DNA of 64,000 nt from Prorocentrum cordatum (Eukaryota; Sar; Dinophyceae; Prorocentrales; Prorocentraceae): contig CAUYUJ010017627.1 in NCBI GenBank assembly GCA_963575745.1, forward strand, positions 300,497-364,496. Direction: 5' to 3'. The notes under the pieces were generated by a model that was given only the letters and a program-made list of their open reading frames with translations, ran no database searches and had not been told where the DNA came from. Shown piece after piece: positions 41,606 to 52,239 of the stretch (its first letter is position 1; each line of letters opens with the position of its first letter). The position numbers were made by a program, and so were the translations under genes.

Positions 41606-42885
41606 GCTGAGGCAGGCTGATGCTGAGGCTGAGGCAGGCTGAGGCTGAGGCTGATGCAGGCTGAGGCTGAGGCAGGCTGAGGCTGAGGCCGAGGCTGAAG
41701 GCAGACTGAGCTGAGGCTGAAGCAGGCTGAGGCTGAGGCTGAGGCAGGCTGAGGCTGAGGCAGGCTGAGGCTGAGGCTGAGGCAGGCTGAGGCTGAGGCT
41801 GAGGCTGCAGGCTGAGGCTGCGGAGGCAGAGGCTGAGGCTGAGGCAGGCTGAGGCAGGCTGAGGCTGAGGCCGAGGCTGAAGGCAGACTGAGGCTGAGGC
41901 TGAAGCAGACTGAGGCTGAGGCTGAGGCAGGCTGAGGCTGAGGCTGAGGCAGGCTGATGCTGAGGCAGGCTGAGGCTGAGGCTGAGGCTGAGGCAGGCTG
42001 AGGCTGAGGCAGGCTGAGGCTGAGGCCGAGGCTGAAGGCAGACTGAGGCTGAGGCTGAAGCAGGCTGAGGCTGAGGCTGAGGCAGGCTGAGGCTGAGGCT
42101 GATGCAGGCTGATGCTGAGGCAGGCTGAGGCTGAGGCTGAGGCTGATGCAGGCTGAGGCTGAGGCAGGCTGAGGCTGAGGCCGAGGCTGAAGGCAGACTG
42201 AGGCTGAGGCTGAAGCAGGCTGAGGCTGAGGCTGAGGCTGAGGCTGAGGCTGAGGCAGGCTGATGCTGAGGCAGGCTGAGGCTGAGGCTGAGGCAGGCTG
42301 AGGCTGAGGCCGAGGCTGAAGGCAGACTGAGGCTGAGGCTGAAGCAGGCTGAGGCTGAGGCTGAGGCAGGCTGAGGCTGAGGCAGGCTGAGGCTGAGGCA
42401 GGCTGAGGCTGAGGCTGAGGCTGATGCAGGCTGAGGCTGAGGCAGGCTGAGGCTGAAGCCAAGGCTGAAGGCAGACTGAGGCTGAGGCTGAAGCAGGCTG
42501 AGGCTGAGGCTGATTCATGCAGAGGCTGAGGCTGAGGCTGAGGCAGGCTGATGCTGAGGCAGGCTGAGGCTGAGGCTGAGGCTGATGCAGGCTGAGGCTG
42601 AGGCAGGCTGAGGCTGAGGCTGAGGCCGACGGCAGACTGAGGCTGAGGCAGCAGGCTGAGGCTGAGGCTGAGGCTGAGGCTGAGGCTGAGGCAGGCTGAT
42701 GCTGAGGCTGAGGCTGAGGCTGAGGCTGATGCAGGGTCAGGCTGAGGCAGGCAGGCTGAGGCCGAGGCTGAAGGCAGACTGATGCTGAGGCTGATGCAGG
42801 CTGAGGCTGAGGCCGAGGCTGAGGCAGGCTGAGGCTGAGGCTGAGGCTGGCAGGCAGCTGAGGCTGAGGCTGTGACTGCGACTGC
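41606..42885 (-). repeat. GAGGCT hexamer array, copy 1
   Basis: About 1.28 kb of gaggct and gaggca hexamers. A marker variant ccgaggctgaaggcagactg appears about every 125-180 bp (near 41692, 41870, 42028, 42180, 42308, 42763), showing a higher-order unit. Reverse-strand frames read Ser-Ala and Leu-Pro-Gln repeats and forward ones Ala-Glu; I do not call these proteins. Confidence 0.95.
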
Positions 42886-43031
42886 CGTTGCCACTGCCAA
42901 TGTCATCGCGAATGCGATTACGACTGCGAGAACAGCAGAATTCTACAATTGGATTATCATATGAATCTTAAGGGGAATGCTTCCAGATATGCTCCTACAC
43001 ATCGCTGTTAGGTTGCTTTGCCGGGATAATT

Positions 43032-43455
43032 ACCTAACAGCGAAGACTGATAGGTTTCTAGTGGTCTCAAAAGAGAGCATCATGACTCCCCAGGGGGGTC
43101 TGGGCAGATGCCGGACGGGTGCCGCGGGAATCCGGGGAGTGCCGCGGGAATCCGGGGACTTCTTTTTTAGCAAACAGTAGCGCACTTCGTGGTCTTCGAG
43201 TTCCCAGAACTCCATTCCTGGGCATGATTATGAATGCCTGGAGCCAACTGTAGGCCACTTCGTTTTCTTCGAATTCCCAGAACTCCATTCCTGGTCATGA
43301 TTTTGAATTCCCGGAGCCAACTCTAGGCCACTTCGTGGTCTTCGAGTTCCCATAACTCCATTATTGGGCATGATTTTGAATGCCCGGAGCCAACTGTAGG
43401 CCACTTCGTGTTCTTCGAATTCCCAGAACTCAATTCCCGGGCCACATTTTGAATG
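43032..43455 (+). repeat. Leader of hexamer array, copy 2
   Basis: Near-identical to 41213-41605, with an extra 22-bp duplication (gtgccgcgggaatccgggga, 43109-43158). The interval 42886-43031 between the units is unique and holds no gene. Confidence 0.9.
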
Positions 43456-44380
43456 CTGAGGCAGGCCGATGCTGAGTCTGAGGCAGGCCGAGGCTGAGGC
43501 AGGCTGAGGCCGAGGCTGAATGCAGACTGAGGCTGAGGCTGAAGCAGGCTGAGGCTGAGGCTGAGGCAGGCTGAGGCTGAGACTGAGGCAGGCTGAGGCT
43601 GAGGCAGGCTGAGGCTGAGGCTGATGCAGGCTGAGGCTGAGGCAGGCTGAGGCCGAGGCTGAAGGCAGATTGATGCTGAGGCCGAAGCAGGCTGAGGCTG
43701 AGGCTGAGGCTGAGGCAGGCTGAGGCTGAGGCTGAGGCAGGCTGATGTTGAGGCAGGCTGAGGCTGAGGCAGGCTGAGGCTGAGGCTGAGGCTGAGGCTG
43801 ATGCAGGCTGAGGCTGAGGCAGGCTGAGGCCGAGGCCGAAGGCAGATTGAGGCGGAGGCTGAGGCAGGCTGAGGCTGAGGCTGAGGCTGAGGCAGGCTGA
43901 TGCTGAGGCAGGCTGAGGCTGAGCTTGAGGCTGATGCGGGCTGAGGCTAAGGCAGCCTGAGGCTGAGGCCGAGGCTGAAGGCAGGCTGATGCTGAGGCTG
44001 AAGCAGGCGGAGGCTGAGGCTGAGGCAGGCTGAGGCTGAGGCCGAGGCTGAGGCCGAGGCTGAAGGCAGGCTGAGGCTGAGGCTGAGGCTGAGGCAGGCT
44101 GAGGCTGAGGCAGGCTGAGGCTGAGGCCGAGGCTGAAGGCAGACTGATGCTGAGGCTGAAACAGGCTGAGGCTGAGGCTGAGGCAGGCTGAGGCTGAGGC
44201 TGAGGCAGGCTGATGTTGAGGCAGGCTGAGGCTGAGGCTAAGGCTGATGCAAGCTGAGGCTGAGGCAGGCTGATGCTCAGGCCGAGGCTGAAGGCAGACT
44301 GAGGCTGATGCTGAAGCAGGCTGAGGCTGAGGCTGAGGCTGATGCAGGCTGAGGCTGAGGCTGAGGCCGGCTGATGTGGC
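43456..44380 (-). repeat. GAGGCT hexamer array, copy 2
   Basis: About 0.92 kb, same hexamers and the same marker word, more diverged than copy 1 (gatgttgagg, ggcggaggct variants). Ends at ccggctgatgtggccg. Confidence 0.95.
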
Positions 44381-44399
44381 CGTTCCCCCTATAGTATGC

Positions 44400-45616
44400 C
44401 TCGCAGGGGCGTCACTCTCTTGCTATGGCGCCACCATAAGATGAAAATCAAGGCCAGCGTACTGGCAGGACGTCGAATCCGAGCCCCAGGGGCGGTGAGG
44501 AGGAGGAGGCGGAGGAGGAGGAGGAGGACTGAAAGGATTCTGGACCCCCCCTGTTGACTGCAGAAATTCCCTCAGGAGGAGGAGGAGGAGGAGAGGGAGG
44601 AGGTGAGGAGGATGACATGGCGGAGGGGGGTAGCAACAGATGCGACGAGGAGAACGGGTGACGTGGATGAGCAGGACGGGTTGGCGGAGAGCGAGTAGGT
44701 TCGAGTAAGAGTCGTTGTAAGCGCAGAGGGAATAAGAGGATGACGAATCAGAAAACGGCGAAGAGGACTAGGAGGAGCGGAAAAAGGTCGGGAAATGAGA
44801 CAGGATGAGGGGAGGGATATGACATGTGTTGCGAGCGTACCGCTTGACTTACTTGTTGCCTTCGGGCATTAGGCGCAGATCCACACCGCTCAGCCCCAGC
44901 AGTAGCAACGTTGAAACTAGTCTCATCTTCTGACTGCGCCAGCCATCGAGCCTAGCAGACCCCGAGCACTGCCGCGCTCTGCCAGTCGCTGCACACTCAG
45001 ACGTCACTTATGTTCTTGCATTTTCCACTGCCCGTCTCGTCACCAACCCTCCCCGATAGACGTCTAGGTGCTCATCTCGCCAACCACCCTGACACGCGAC
45101 ATGATTTTCTTGGCGACCTGGCCATCATCAAACTCGGGGGCACACGCAAACCGCTCAAACACACCAACCAGAAACATCGTCACGATCATCAACAAATCAT
45201 CAAACAATCATCAACCTGAAAATAAGAACCGTCCGATCTTAAATGATATGATGATCCGTGCTGTTTCTAACGAATGTATCGCACAATACGTGATGATGCT
45301 AAATAAGATCGTGCGAATCGAGTGGGCCTTAAACTAAGACCCCATCATCACGATCATCAAAATATCACCAAAACATCATCAAGCTACGATCCCGCATCAT
45401 CACACATCATCGTCGTCATGGCGGCTTCCAAGGCAACCTGCGTGCTTGATCCCCACCCTCCGCAATCCTCAACCTCACTACCCGTCTCCGAACACTTACT
45501 CCGTACGTCCCAGGTGCAGGCAAACTCTAGCGATGCTTCCAGTGCAGGTGGCACTGGTCATGCAATAGCGATCACCCCAGCGTCGCTAAGGAAAGGTAGG
45601 CACTTGCAGCGAACCC
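44400..45616. other. No supported gene; short GGA and ATC-rich parts
   Basis: GGA triplets at about 44495-44605. Around 45175-45215 and 45340-45415 atcatcaa words recur. Short frames have no motif. Confidence 0.4.
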
Positions 45617-46810
45617 TCACTTCTTGAGAGCCGTATCGCGCACAAGCCTCATCGAGATGATCGCAGCCTTCTCACGAGAGGTCTTCTTGATCTCATCGTC
45701 CAAGGTGGTCACCATGTGGCTGCACAGCGCAGGCAACTCCTGCTCTGGGTACATCTTCTGAATGTCCGTGTACGCGAAGGTCATTAAGTCGTCGATGAAT
45801 TGCGTGCTCGTAGCCTTCTGCTGCAGGCTCTTGAGTGCGTCAATCATCGGCTTCATGTGGTCATCTGTGTTGAACGGCTGTCACTGCTTCTGCGTCTGGA
45901 TCGCGTTGCAAAGAGACTGCACGCCAGACAAGACATCCTTGAACTGCTTCTTCAACCTCTGCGCGCGTGCCTCAGGCGTCTCGATCTTGAGCTTCTTGCC
46001 GCCAGGGACAAGATCTTGCCCTGCATGCCCGTCACCCTCAGATGCGTCGGCGGTGCGGGACGGGCGGGGCTTCTTGCCAGGCGCGTGCTCTTTCTCAGCG
46101 GAAGCGGGCTGATGGAGAGCTGGGGAAGCTGGCACCCCGCCCGTAGGACGGACCTGAGGCGTGCTTGGCGGTGGTGCCGCTATACTGGTTGCTGGCGCGC
46201 TGGCCTCCGTAGGCGCTGGACGGGTGGCCACGGGCACGCCGCCGTGGTTCTGCAAGTGAGTCGACCAGGCACGCATGCACGTCTGCTTGTGCACCACCTC
46301 CACCTCGAAATACTCCACCTCGAAATACTCGTAGTGCTCCCACATGTCGCAGTAACGAATCCAGCCATTGCCCATGGCCATGCACTTCTTCGCGTACATC
46401 AAAGGTTTCTGCAGGCCCTCCTTCGCGGTGAGCGTTGCCAAGCTCTTGTTTTTCCCCTTCGAGATGTCCATTACCTCGTGGCTCTCGGTCTTCGATTTGC
46501 TGATATTGTACTCCTTGAGCTTGAGCGCCAACCATTTCTGCTGAAACTCCTTCTTGTCAGTGGTGCGGACGAGCTTCTTGTACGCATCGGTTTGGCCTCC
46601 ATGTTCTTCTGTACTGCGACCAAACGTCTTGCCCAAGGCTGAGCGGAGGTTGAGACCGACCTCGATCGCTGTCTCGAGCGTTTTTTGTTGCTCGTCGATC
46701 GTCCCGCTACTCTTACTGGCGTGGGCGGCATTGTCCTTGAAAGTCGATGTCAAAGCCATCGTTGCATCCTGGACGGCCTTGAGCTGCTGCGCACTCAGGG
46801 TGTCAGCCAT
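45617..46810 (-). pseudogene. Protein P1: unknown, possible retroelement ORF1/Gag-like
   Basis: From ATG at 46810 the reverse strand reads MADTLSAQQLKAVQDATMAL, a helical N-terminus, then KEFQQKWLALKLKEYNISKS, a Trp/Tyr/Cys-bearing middle (GNGWIRYCDMWEHYEYFEVE), a Pro/Ala-rich linker, a basic KKLKIETPEARAQRLKKQF coiled segment, and a C-terminal part from 45856 (IDDLMTFAYTDIQKMYPEQE). One in-frame TGA at 45881-45883 interrupts about 397 codons; TGG would restore reading. A spliced-leader-like relic lies 48 bp upstream. I do not recognise the family. The order helix, linker, basic coil resembles non-LTR ORF1 or Gag proteins, but a host retrogene is equally possible. Confidence 0.6.
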
Positions 46811-46857
46811 ATGGCTTAGTTCGGAAATCAAGAACTGCTTGCGTCACGAAGCCCTGT

Positions 46858-46880
46858 CTTGAGCCACAATGTCTTACAGT
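46858..46880 (-). other. Spliced-leader-like relic upstream of P1
   Basis: On the coding strand of P1 the text is CTGTA, then CATTGTGGCTCAAG. The dinoflagellate leader ends CATTTTGGCTCAAG, so 13 of 14 bases agree, and a GTA lies at nearly the right distance. The position, 48 bp before the ATG, is where a trans-spliced leader would sit in a retroposed mRNA. Confidence 0.5.
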
Positions 46881-46994
46881 GCCCACGATTGCAATGGCAA
46901 GTGCTGCATGTTTCAGGAGGGGCTGGTGATTGGGAGGCCGTACTAAACCAGACGTTGATGACCCCTGTCGCCATGAAGCCACAGGCTGTGACTT

Positions 46995-47190
46995 CAGACA
47001 GGAGGGGGAGGGAGAGGGGGACGAGGAGGAGGAGGAGGAGGAGGATGAGGAGGAGGAGGGGGAGGAGGAGGAGGAGGAGGAGGGGGAGGAGAAGGAGGCG
47101 GAGGAGGAGTGCTTGTTTCAAACGAGTTTGAACACGCAACCAGGCAAACGTGGTGGAGGAGGAGGAGGAGGAGGAGGAGGAGGAGGACTC
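46995..47190 (+). repeat. GGA tracts between divergent genes
   Basis: Two purine tracts (46997-47110 and 47152-47188) between P1 and the forward RT gene. The stretch 47200-47600 has a CTC-rich part (47340-47390) and no gene. Confidence 0.9.
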
Positions 47191-47600
47191 TGAGAGCATC
47201 AATTTCCGTGCGCAGCCAGCCCCGTCAGGCGGTGCACTCAGGAGACGTGGTATCACGTCTCTCCCGTCAGAATGTTGCTCTAAGTGCTACCCTTCTTTGA
47301 CAGGGTTCCTCCACGTTTTCCAGATTCCCCTCGTGTTCCTCCCACTCCTCACCCTCCTCCTCCTCCTCACCCTCCTCCTCCTCCTCCTGCCTATGTTGAT
47401 GCTGACCTTCTCCATCTAGTACAGAAAGACCGACGTTCGATGCTCAGATATTGCCGCAGGGCGGCAAAAAGACGTGCTTATCCCAGCTGGGGCCTCCCCA
47501 CAGAAGCAGTGTGGTTACTATTGCAGCCGAATGTCAACATGGAGTCTCCTAATAAGTTGAGCGAGTTGAATGAACAAAGGCAGATTAGACAGGCTGAAAA

Positions 47601-50600
47601 ATGGAGGAGGAGGAGGAGATGGAGAGATTCACTGCGGAGTTTAAGTATCGAGTGGGCAGGAGGCTACTGGAGAAGATGGGGTGGACCAGGGGAGAGGGGC
47701 TCGGGGCGCCTGGACCTGACGGCGCCGCTCGACCGCCAGAGGAGCCGCCGGTGGGCGACTTGTGGCAGTTTCGTCGGGAGGAAAGGGCAGGCTTGGGGAG
47801 TACGGAGTTGTGCGCCGAAACGTACGAGTTTGAGAAGGTGCTGCAGGATTATCTAGTACACATCCGTCGGTGTCAAGCCATGCCCCTCTGCAGTTACCGG
47901 TCCCTGAGCTTCTCGAGTGACAAGGCAAATGGCAAAAACAACATAAGTGGCAAGCGCATCATGCACTGCTATGATGCATTCTCCATGGCCTGGCACTCGG
48001 GGATACCCTACCGAGCACAGAAAGTATGGACGCCTACATGGGCACAGGGGGGGATAGCACACAGAAGCAGAGAGAGCATCATCACCATCATCATGTGTAA
48101 CAAGTGGAGGGCGGAGTGCAATAAGAAGAGTCTCGTCGTGAGCAACTACGATTGTACCAATGCTTTCGCAGCGACTGAAAGAGAACGTCTTGAGATCCAA
48201 GCAGAGGAACATGCATGCCCCGAGGACGTACCATTTGCTATTGCGACGGTGAGGCAACAGACGATGACCATGGAGACGTCAGACGGTACATTAGATATCA
48301 GGTCCACCACAGGTACTCAGATGGGATTTACTACAGCTCCCAGAGATTTTATCAATACATACAACAAGGAGGTGGAGGAGTGGAGGATGGGAGAGAGAGA
48401 GAGCACGGAGAGCACAGATGGTTCTTTACCACAGATCCTCGTCACCCTGACCTACCCCCTATTGATACCCAATTGAGTGTGTTCATGGACGACATTACGA
48501 AGAGCACTGTCATTGAGGAGGGGGCATCGGCGGCTAAGGTCACCGAGATACTGAACGGAAGCACATCTAGGTTGGAAAGTTGCTTGGCCAAAGGGCAGTG
48601 GACGCTCAACCCCAGCAAAACGAACCATCTACTCGATCTACGGGGGGCTCGACACTACCAGACTACACGCCGCTTGAGACGTAGTAAAGAGCTGAAGGGC
48701 CAAGCCCTTCGAGAGGTGCGTGTGTTAGGTCCGCATTTACCGAGCGAGCAGGGCATGTTGAGCGAGGTACTCAGGAGAAGTCAAGCTGCCAGACAGGCTT
48801 GGCGACAATGCGGGTGCTTTTGGACGTCCTCCACAGCTAAATGTATACGACGGGCGATGTTTCAGGCCTTCGTAGTGGAAGCCGCTCTTAGTGGATTATC
48901 TGCCTTCGTCATCCCTGATAAGTTTGTCAGCATCCTAGACCAGACCCTGGGGAAGTTTTTGAGGGTGCTATCTAAAGGAGAGATGAGCTGGGTGACGGAG
49001 GAGGGGGAGAGGAGGTGCAGGTCCACGAAGTTTGTTTTCAGAGCATGGCAGATACCTAGATGTGCTACACAGTTGAGAGTACGAAGGATTCGCAATTACC
49101 TCCGCTGGGCGAAGTATCCAGATGATCATCAGGCGGTGGTAGCAGCGGTGTTTGGCACAGCTTGGATGGACCAGGCTCCCAGATTATCCGAAGACTTCAG
49201 AGTGCACAGCGAGTCGACCCCCTGGGCTAAACAATTCGTGTCCGACCTCGATCATTTGGCTTCCGTCGACCCCGAGTTCGCTGATTGGTACCATGCGAGA
49301 AGCGACGATATCAGCATATTGAAACGAGGGAGCCCAGAGAACGACAGGTTTCTGCAAACGGACCCGTCGTACTTGAATGCAGTCGAGAAGTACGGGGAGG
49401 TGTCACCTGATATAGAGGAGAAATCGGGGTTAAAACTGAGGACGGAAATTCGGGCAGTTATTCTTGAGGAGGAGGAGCAGGCGATGGAGGAGTACTACAG
49501 ACCCTATTGGTGTGATCACACGAAGGAGGAGGAGGGAGGAGAAAAAACGACCTGTGGCAAAAGGTTTTTGAGTGCAACAGGCCTTATCGCCCATCGTCGT
49601 GAGGCACACGGTGTGACACCTCTATTGAGCAAGATTAGCATCACAAACCAGTGCCCCTGGTGCAGGAGCTGTTTCGTGAATAGAGCAGGTGCCTTGGACC
49701 ATGGTCGCAGGGCAGCATTGAGGTTTGGAAAGTGCTTCGTAGATCACTCGAAGTGGAGCCACGATGTGAAGGTCCCCGATGACTTGAGTTGCCGCGTATG
49801 TGCTTTCTCGGCTCAAAATTTCGAGAGCTTTCAGGAGCACGTCCGACAGCACCTGCCTGGACCACATTCGGTGGTGGAGGCTGCCGATCGAGACTGCGCG
49901 GGCGAGGATGGCGTGGAGAGTGAAGAGAGCACCACCAGGAGGAGAGCCTGGCCTAGAACGGGACAAGAAGGAGGCACGACAAGAGGGTGGAGCTCGAGGA
50001 AAGGGCGGCAAGTCGAAGGACGGCGAGAGCACGGACATCAGGGAGGCCCTCGTCACCGTGCAGAAGCTCGTGCTGCGCAACAGCCAGGAGAACCGCGACA
50101 TGATGAACGGCGTATTCGACTTCTGGCTGGTCCCAGGATCGTCGGCAATGGTCACGGCAGGGGCCGACACAGGCCTCGACTACAACAACACGGTGAAGAG
50201 GTTGGGGAAGGGCCATGGGCAGGGGCCGCCGCATGTGCACATCGCGATGGCGGTGGTCGAGAAGGCGGTGGAGGTGCTCGACGAGCAAGACAAGTGGCAG
50301 GCGGAGAGCAAGCTCTTGCTCAAGGAGTGGGTCGGGGCGGCCAGCGGCGAGCACGGACAGAGGCTCGTGGACGCGACCTTCAGCATGTTCAGGATCAAGA
50401 AGGCCTACCAGCGCGAGTCGGACCTGGAGGAGATGTACAAGGTCATGTTCGGCATCAGGCCGCTGGTCGACTTCAAGACGGCGCTGCGCTTGGCGGAGGC
50501 GTCCTCGGAGGTCATCGCACAGGTGCGCCAATTTCAGCCAGCGCTGCTTCGAGAGGCGCTGAATCACGCGTGGTTCCTGCAGAAAGGTGTGATGCCAATG

Positions 50601-50929
50601 GGAGCGGGGCCGAAGACAGAGTTGGAGAGGGTAGTAGAGGCTCAGCTGAAGCAGCTGATCAAACAGGGAACGCTGAAGAGGAGCTGAGAAGTAGGTACGG
50701 TCAAGTGATTGTAGATATTGCACACGACCCGAGGCGGCAGCAGACGCTTCGCAGCATGGTAGCAGGTGGCAGTGAGCATGCGAGCAGACTCTTGCAGCAG
50801 GTGAAAGAGTATCGCAGCTCACTGCAGAACACGCTTCAATTTGACAATATTAGAAGAGATGCCGCCCCTGGCGGCAACGGCGCGCCTCCCAGAGAGGCAG
50901 CAGGCGCCGCTCCCGATATCGCACTATAG
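47601..50929 (+). pseudogene. G-patch / reverse transcriptase / zinc-finger protein
   Basis: ATG at 47601, acidic start, then a G-patch: VGRRLLEKMGWTRGEGLG and ERAGLG (residues about 17-65). RT follows: SFSSDKANGKNNISGKRIM, VVSNYDCTNAFAATERE (Asp at 48150-48152), GTQMGFTTAPRDFIN. The frame then shifts, probably at the (GA)n run 48388-48402, and continues as QLSVFMDDITKSTV (Asp pair 48488-48493), TLNPSKTNHLLDL, a thumb, and C2H2/C2HC-like fingers: CGKRFLSATGLIAHRREAHG, CPWCRSCFVNRAGALDH, CRVCAFSAQNFESFQEHVRQ (to 49855). Near 49900 it shifts back, giving a helical 250-residue part (REALVTVQKLVLRNSQENRD, FFQ-free, ending TLKRS 50687), and again near 50690 (RYGQVIVDIAHDPRRQQTLR). With about three shifts over 1.1 kilocodons it is decayed but young-looking. 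A non-LTR RT is the best reading. Confidence 0.8.
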
Positions 50930-50931
50930 GG

Positions 50932-50999
50932 GGGAGGAGGCTCAGCCCCAAGGCATCCCCTAGCCAGCTAGGGATAGCCTAGAGGCTTTGCCTCCTCCC
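50932..50999 (+). other. Strong hairpin directly after the RT gene
   Basis: Two nested stems start three bases after the TAG stop (50927-50929). Outer: gggaggaggc (50932-50941) with gcctcctccc (50990-50999). Inner: 50951-50964 with 50967-50980, ccctagc-ca-gctaggg extended by at and aggc/gcct across two one-base bulges. It could be the 3' RNA structure that an RT recognises; this role is inferred. Confidence 0.65.
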
Positions 51000-51181
51000 T
51001 CCACTTCTTCATATCCCCCGCGGGATCTTCCTCGCCGACGGGGCATCGCGCGCAGTCTTTGCACCGCCGCGTCGCCCCATGCCGTGGCGGCCTGCTGCTT
51101 TTGCAGGCGGCCCAGCCTCCATATTCAACGGAGGGGCCTCGCTCAGCTGCAGGATGACAGACTGATGGCCCCCAACTGAGC

Positions 51182-51270
51182 ACCACCACCACCACCTCCT
51201 CCTCCTCCTCCTCCTCCCCCTCCTCCTCCTCCTCCTCCTCCTCCTCCTCCTCCTCCTCCTCCTCCTCCCT
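51182..51270 (-). repeat. CTC pyrimidine tract
   Basis: About 90 bp of cct/ctc triplets. The sequence 51000-51180 between hairpin and tract has no gene. Confidence 0.95.
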
Positions 51271-51407
51271 CTTCGCAGGCGGCAGGCTTACGTACCTAGA
51301 AACCAGCATGCATCATCGCCTCCAGGTCGCCCTGGGAGAAGCTGCACTCGAAGTCGTCCGTCGTTGAGGGCTCCTCGGGGCGGAGCGGGGTCGCTCTGAG
51401 CTTCTCC

Positions 51408-51545
51408 TCCACCTCCTCCTCCTCCTCCGTTGCCTCGTTTTTCACCAAACTCACTTGAACAAACAAAAGCATCCCCCTCGTCCTCCTCCTCCTCCTCCTC
51501 CTCCTCCTCCTCCTCCTCCTCCCTCTTCTCCTCCGCCTCCTCCTT
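51408..51545 (-). repeat. CTC pyrimidine tracts
   Basis: Two blocks (51408-51430 and 51480-51545) separated by unique DNA. Confidence 0.92.
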
Positions 51546-51579
51546 TCTCCTCATCCTGCTCCGCATCTTCCTCCTCCTC

Positions 51580-51629
51580 ATCATCATTATCCTCATCATC
51601 ATCATCATCATCATCATCATCACCACCAC

Positions 51630-51661
<32 letters not shown>

Positions 51662-51701
51662 GCAGCATCGTCATCGTCATCAGCAGCATCATCATCCTCA
51701 G

Positions 51702-51742
<41 letters not shown>

Positions 51743-51800
51743 CCATCGGCATCGGCATCACCATCACCATCAGCATCCTCATCATCATCATCACCATCCC
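51580..51800 (-). repeat. (ATC)n microsatellite
   Basis: About 220 bp of atc/cat triplets with cagcatc and caccacc variants; reverse complement of the GAT arrays elsewhere. From 51840 to 52230 follow cgacgacga and gatgatgatg words with no gene. Confidence 0.95.
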
Positions 51801-52239
51801 TCCCCTCGGGGAGGACGACATGATTTCACAGCAAGCGAATCCTGGCCCGTGGCCGTCTCGCCCTCGCCCTCGTCCTTGGTCGTCTCGCCCTCGGGAGCGT
51901 CATCGGGCTCAGAGGCGGGGGGGGCGAGGGCGAGGAGTAGCGAGCTAATGAGGGGGGCGACGGCGACGACGACGACGACGATGGCGACGACGGCGACGGC
52001 GAGGCGATCGATGCGATCGCCGTCGCAGCCAATGAATTGACAGAGCGGCGTCGGAGGGCGAAACAGACACCCTCGAGGAGGATAAGGAGTAGGATCAGTC
52101 GGAAGAGGACGCCGATGCGGCTGAGGATGAAGATGCTGCTGATCATGATGATGGTTACGGTGATGATGGTTACGAGTATCACCAGTTGTATGATGTTGAT
52201 GATGATCATGATGATGTTGATGATGATGGTGGCGACGGG

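Follow-up and report, generated by a model that had tools for sequence, protein, structure and literature searches.

The DNA analyzed here (the window) is a stretch of 64,000 nucleotides (nt) from the dinoflagellate Prorocentrum cordatum (contig CAUYUJ010017627.1, positions 300,497 to 364,496 of the forward strand). At 47388..51274 (+), it carries what appears from its sequence to be a recently inserted, 5'-truncated, and frame-broken member of a large family of non-long-terminal-repeat (non-LTR) retrotransposons resembling long interspersed nuclear elements (LINEs). An earlier interpretation, which we call the sequence-only reading, had taken 47601-50929 for a single protein, in which a reverse transcriptase (RT) begins with a G-patch domain and ends in zinc fingers. 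The G-patch was recovered, while its position and the extent of the protein had to be revised.

Both ends of the copy were set by blastn homology to L009, an intact copy among the relatives sought in the 4.13-Gb P. cordatum assembly. Across 3,888 alignment columns, the 2 copies differ by 30 mismatches. Homology to L009 starts only at 47388, which defines the 5' truncation. Within the window copy, frame 0 is open over 47601-48476, a 291-aa open reading frame (ORF) containing the G-patch and the first part of the RT. The FMDD motif and the zinc fingers lie in frame 2, and 49908-50687 forms a separate ORF, so that no single protein covers the region. The ATG at 47601 encodes an internal methionine rather than a start, because in L009 a single frame runs through endonuclease, linker, G-patch, and RT, with approximately 570 codons of endonuclease and linker upstream of the equivalent position. 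The G-patch is thus internal, between the endonuclease and the RT.

When set against L009, the reading frame of the window copy is broken near 47596 and again near 48392, which may stem from an assembly error at 2 short repeats. As the breaks flank the G-patch, the window copy taken alone could be read as an artificial fusion, produced by a chimeric frame or by the assembly. This explanation is extremely improbable and is refuted by the intact copies, which hold endonuclease, G-patch, and RT in one frame. From their reading frames, the protein of intact members is predicted to combine endonuclease, G-patch, RT, and zinc fingers, and an overlapping ORF2 follows at the 3' end. The features of the window copy are collected in Table 1.

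Table 1. Features of the retrotransposon copy in the window.
Feature	Position	Strand	Basis
5'-truncated retrotransposon copy, (CCT)n at both ends	47388..51274	+	blastn vs L009
End of endonuclease-RT linker (YVDADLL..YPSWGLP..RQAE), frame 1	47388..47598	+	Peptide in frame with G-patch in L009 and other copies
G-patch, residues 18-67 of ORF at 47601	47652..47801	+	PF01585, 31.1 bits (cut-off 22); family conservation
RT, first part, frame 0, motifs A and B	47880..48392	+	Sequence; structure matches of family protein
RT, second part, and thumb region, frame 2; FMDD at 48482-48493	48393..49450	+	Frames, family alignment
Zinc-finger region, frame 2	49503..49860	+	Near-invariant Cys/His positions in alignment A1; C2H2 models of Pfam score weakly, under cut-off here
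Putative ORF2, 259 aa, GPPHVH protein, own ATG, +1 frame vs fingers	49908..50687	+	Family comparison
Frame-2 segment after ORF2 (RYGQVIVDIAHD..)	50663..50929	+	tblastn, finger frame in close copies; weak in L018-L021
3' untranslated end, into (TCC)n tract	50930..51274	+	Homology to L009

A repeat search of 44300-52000, which bears on long terminal repeats in this 5'-truncated copy alone, returned simple-repeat families only. Upstream of the element, AGGCTG units are repeated at length over window positions 42000-44370, with longer periods of 16 and 22 nt.

A G-patch between endonuclease and reverse transcriptase

In a profile search, PF01585 matched the ORF at 47601 over residues 17-37, with 26.7 bits when the 291-aa ORF was searched and 31.1 bits in residues 1-76, above the Pfam cut-off of 22 bits. 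The domain also fits the G-patch consensus motif Gx2hhx3Gax2GxGlG ... GhG as given in PMC11459146, and the later AGLG pointed out by the sequence-only reading fits the end of this motif. Intact copies start upstream of the G-patch and not, as the same reading had considered, downstream of it. Among other copies, the profile scored 28.7 bits in L024 and 12.6 bits in L019, and gave no match in L025.

Conservation was assessed in 34 aligned copies, drawn as 20 + 14 from 2 locus sets, the most distant pair being 31% identical. These copies fall into 11 clusters at 70% RT identity, and the G-patch is kept across them: the core pattern was found in 27 copies and an AGLG-like tail in 33, missing only in L042. 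Residues G19, R20, G27, G35, G64, and G66 were invariant in 12 chosen representatives, and L23, W28, and G31 were retained in 11 of these. Over 18 chosen pairs, the mean ratio of nonsynonymous to synonymous change (pN/pS) was 0.34 for the G-patch core and 0.35 for the RT, compared with values of 0.47 for the upstream region, 0.48 for the inner spacer, and 0.52 for the downstream region, all of them rough ratios, as pS was near saturation. By these ratios, the G-patch is under the same constraint as the RT.

Apart from this saturation, several findings weigh against the helicase recruitment proposed below. The canonical GxGlG occurs in just 9/34 copies, with GETVG or similar in its place in several subfamilies, and 7/34 fail the core pattern (L016, L025, L035, L036, L043, L045, and L046). 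Profile matches to G-patch proteins in the PDB, although ranking first (SUGP1, E 0.017), second (GPATCH1, E 0.092), and fourth (NKRF, E 0.24), were weak, and the G-patch part of the predicted structure was poor, with a predicted local distance difference test (pLDDT) score under 50. We conclude that the G-patch is a genuine and conserved domain, and that the LINE family holding it is genuine and large. A captured host piece carried as a useless passenger, for which other repeated G-patch genes in the genome (L047, see below) could speak, is highly improbable given the retention of the domain across the 11 clusters and its RT-like constraint.

The RT peptides NYDCTNAFA and GTQMGFTTAPRDF, which we take to be motifs A and B, lie in the same frame as the window G-patch. 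The best structural matches of a fold model of an intact relative were LINE-1 ORF2p and R2, and the RT is accordingly modelled with a non-LTR fold containing motifs A, B, and C. Of 16 members, 7 gave an RVT_1 match with an E value of up to 0.5 (best 6.9e-7), and L009 scored below cut-off. Family search, alignment, and fold matches thus support the claim of a non-LTR RT carrying a G-patch in a dinoflagellate element.

The endonuclease is predicted from sequence to be N-terminal, APE-type, and part of the same protein as the RT; in 5 proteins, PF03372 scored above cut-off once and below it 3 times, and was absent from L024. Where a catalytic Glu is usual in APE-type enzymes, this endonuclease (L009 6241-7050 and homologues, alignment A3) has LxGT, with the GDxNSD, DH, and RDH motifs kept. 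The proposed C-terminal zinc fingers were borne out in part: many Cys and His residues are nearly invariant across the family, whereas single Pfam zinc-finger models score below cut-off in the window copy.

Family size, ORF2, and element ends

The window ORF used as query gave at least 135 matches at 133 or more loci, with the best 134 of 5,676 candidates scored. The G-patch was included in 126 of the 135 listed matches (match start at or before query residue 19), a proportion biased by the presence of the G-patch in the query itself. An RT-only query from L027 gave at least 106 matches (best 106 of 9,095 candidates), each listed one sharing 56% identity or more with the query and many being absent from the window-ORF list. 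Near-identical copies are dispersed in the genome: L009 and L010 are 99.4% identical over 5,622 nt. L008 and L012 share a contig (C15164). With the Pfam G-patch model as query, 47 matches were obtained among the best 150 of 304 candidates, 20 of them in or adjoining family loci. A further match, L049, reads as an element copy that is 5'-truncated, like the window copy. Another, L047 15-857 (C14213), belongs with similar 311-aa places to a set of repeated genes that have ankyrin-like stretches (by reading) and a C-terminal G-patch, and that are not part of the retrotransposon.

Viral contigs yielded 28 pattern matches in one scan and 32 in another, with no relative among them. Searches of protein databases, part of which scored only candidates sharing most words, returned P0001, P0002, and P0003. 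P0001, a EukProt entry labelled Pyramimonas, was rejected as evidence for the element in a second species: along 199 aa it matches L016 4972-5568 with 100% identity, and contamination is therefore likely. The same identity hints that the L016 copy is transcribed. P0002 (C15164, L012) and P0003 are P. cordatum NCBI gene models joining element pieces to exostosin-like and guanylate-cyclase-like proteins, either through mis-annotation or through exon capture.

The protein encoded by ORF2 at the 3' end of the element carries a GPPHVH-like motif (alignment A2). In all 20 copies with both matches, among them the window copy, the first part of ORF2 is shifted by +1 from the frame of the fingers; a later change of frame within ORF2 occurs in L015, L018, and L028, and L016 gave no matches in this comparison. 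An in-frame ATG precedes ORF2 in 17/18 copies (not in L012), and the length from this ATG is 256-297 aa in 13/18, being shorter in L018, L019, L020, and L028. Even between subfamilies whose ORF2 identity is just 31-36%, the +1 relation to the ORF1 frame is fixed and the place of the ATG is similar. Between L009 and L013, pS in the ORF2 frame was 0.151 and pN 0.017, values that show selection acting in this frame.

The frame of ORF1 is uninterrupted across ORF2 in 17/18 copies (the exception being L010), and in the overlap 9/9 copies had no stop in this frame, against a mean of 1.9 to 4.9 after synonymous shuffling, the copies having been picked for long frames. Dual coding of the overlap was nevertheless rejected, as the ORF1-frame amino acids are not conserved between L009 and L013 (pS 0.015, pN 0.060), and only ORF2 is put forward as coding there. 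Translation of ORF2 by +1 ribosomal frameshifting is possible. Its fold was predicted with a template modelling score (pTM) of 0.69; the fold had no match in the PDB at E <= 0.001, and the sequence none at E <= 1. Against Pfam, ORF2 of member 1 gave no match and other members only single weak ones.

Element ends were tested for (TCC)n tracts of at least 4 units within 60 nt in the 13 copies placeable by homology, from 20 loci and the window. A tract was present at the 5' end in all 13 and at the 3' end in 11, and an opposite-strand repeat in none. The background was 63 of 695 same-size flanking windows (9%), and 0.4% in the rest of the window. A (CCT)n repeat also opens the 5'-truncated window copy, so the tract is more than the native 5' end of the element. 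Counting against strict targeting, L012 and L020 lack a 3' tract by the test used, and the 5'-truncated L049 begins at (TAC)n. LINEs with microsatellite targets, of the HERO and Togen families, are described in PMC4640811.

A candidate helicase partner and comparison with known retroelements

The sequence-only reading had also suggested that the G-patch tethers the element to a helicase or to spliceosomal RNA. The former is plausible, as the genome encodes a DHX15/Prp43-like protein; the latter found no support. In other proteins, G-patches serve to recruit RNA helicases. PF07717, a C-terminal domain of DEAH/RHA helicases, gave 10 matches in the genome, all above cut-off. One of these falls in a 698-aa open frame whose nearest matches are DHX15 (E 5.7e-232) and Prp43 (E 6.6e-222). 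According to the published account, DHX15/Prp43 works in splicing and ribosome assembly. In Mason-Pfizer monkey virus (M-PMV), a G-patch between protease and RT brings DHX15 into particles; changes to this G-patch or knock-down of DHX15 reduce reverse transcription product and RT activity, and, per the abstract, genome packaging is also affected (PMC11459146). Change of the M-PMV residues Y880, G883, and G887 lowers DHX15 in virions (PMC11459146), and W28, G31, and G35 of the element G-patch have the same spacing.

By analogy with M-PMV, and given this shared spacing and the DHX15-like gene, we consider it somewhat probable that the element G-patch recruits a host DHX15/Prp43-type helicase for packaging and copying. 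In such a cycle, the element protein would bind its own mRNA, and the RT would copy the RNA by target-primed reverse transcription. We infer that the endonuclease would open microsatellite DNA, often (TCC)n, that the G-patch, in a flexible stretch just before the RT, would bind and activate the DEAH helicase, and that the recruited helicase would open or clear RNA or ribonucleoprotein (RNP) for packaging and copying. Of the parts of this cycle, the domain order, the G-patch constraint, and the helicase gene are shown here, as is, in the form of a model, the RT fold.

LINE proteins bind their own RNA, and the G-patch adjoins the RT and is set among basic residues. With some subfamilies departing from the canonical G-patch, the domain could instead bind RNA or DNA directly, or be a structural part of the endonuclease-RT linker, without a helicase partner. 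We consider this unlikely, though worth serious weight, as the retained G19, R20, L23, G27, W28, G31, and G35, and then AGLG, are G-patch consensus residues, and the spacing of W28/G31/G35 is that of the very M-PMV residues whose change lowers DHX15 in virions. A DEAH helicase could also be recruited for another step, such as nuclear retention, RNP export, spliceosome disassembly on element RNA, or evasion of silencing. The roles of DHX15/Prp43 in splicing and ribosome assembly would suit this, but nothing points to any such step, and the place beside the RT favours copying or packaging, which makes it rather improbable.

Should recruitment for copying and packaging hold, host RNA helicase help in target-primed reverse transcription would become directly testable in a large family with near-identical copies in a 4-Gb dinoflagellate genome. 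We put forward tentatively, at close to even chances, that a built-in recruiter of host DHX15/Prp43 directly before the RT was reached independently by betaretroviruses and these elements at the same protein place, that helicase-assisted target-primed reverse transcription is a wider retroelement strategy, and that G-patch RTs are an overlooked LINE branch with an accessory ORF after the RT.

Compared with LINE-1 ORF2p and other APE-type LINEs, the element protein has a G-patch between endonuclease and RT, and several fingers. Its accessory ORF follows the RT ORF, whereas LINEs usually place such an ORF before it. In R2, the endonuclease is restriction-like and C-terminal and the fingers are N-terminal; that of the present element is N-terminal and predicted to be APE-type. 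Insertion at simple repeats, apparent here from the tracts at the element ends, would be shared with the microsatellite-specific non-LTR elements HERO and Togen, which have a restriction-like endonuclease and, in the part of PMC4640811 available to us, no mention of a G-patch. Among the open-licence PMC papers listed, the retroelements with a G-patch were retroviruses and plant Ty3/Gypsy elements (PMC9289625, PMC6058741), and no non-LTR RT had one, which is no proof of absence. The plant elements likewise carry PF01585, but are of the LTR type, come from seven dicot species, and are described without the endonuclease-RT order (PMC9289625). A likeness in layout is seen with M-PMV and other betaretroviruses, in which a G-patch also directly precedes the RT with the same spacing of the key W/Y, G, and G. 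As those are LTR retroviruses with a protease before the G-patch, and the element types are unrelated, this likeness suggests convergence.
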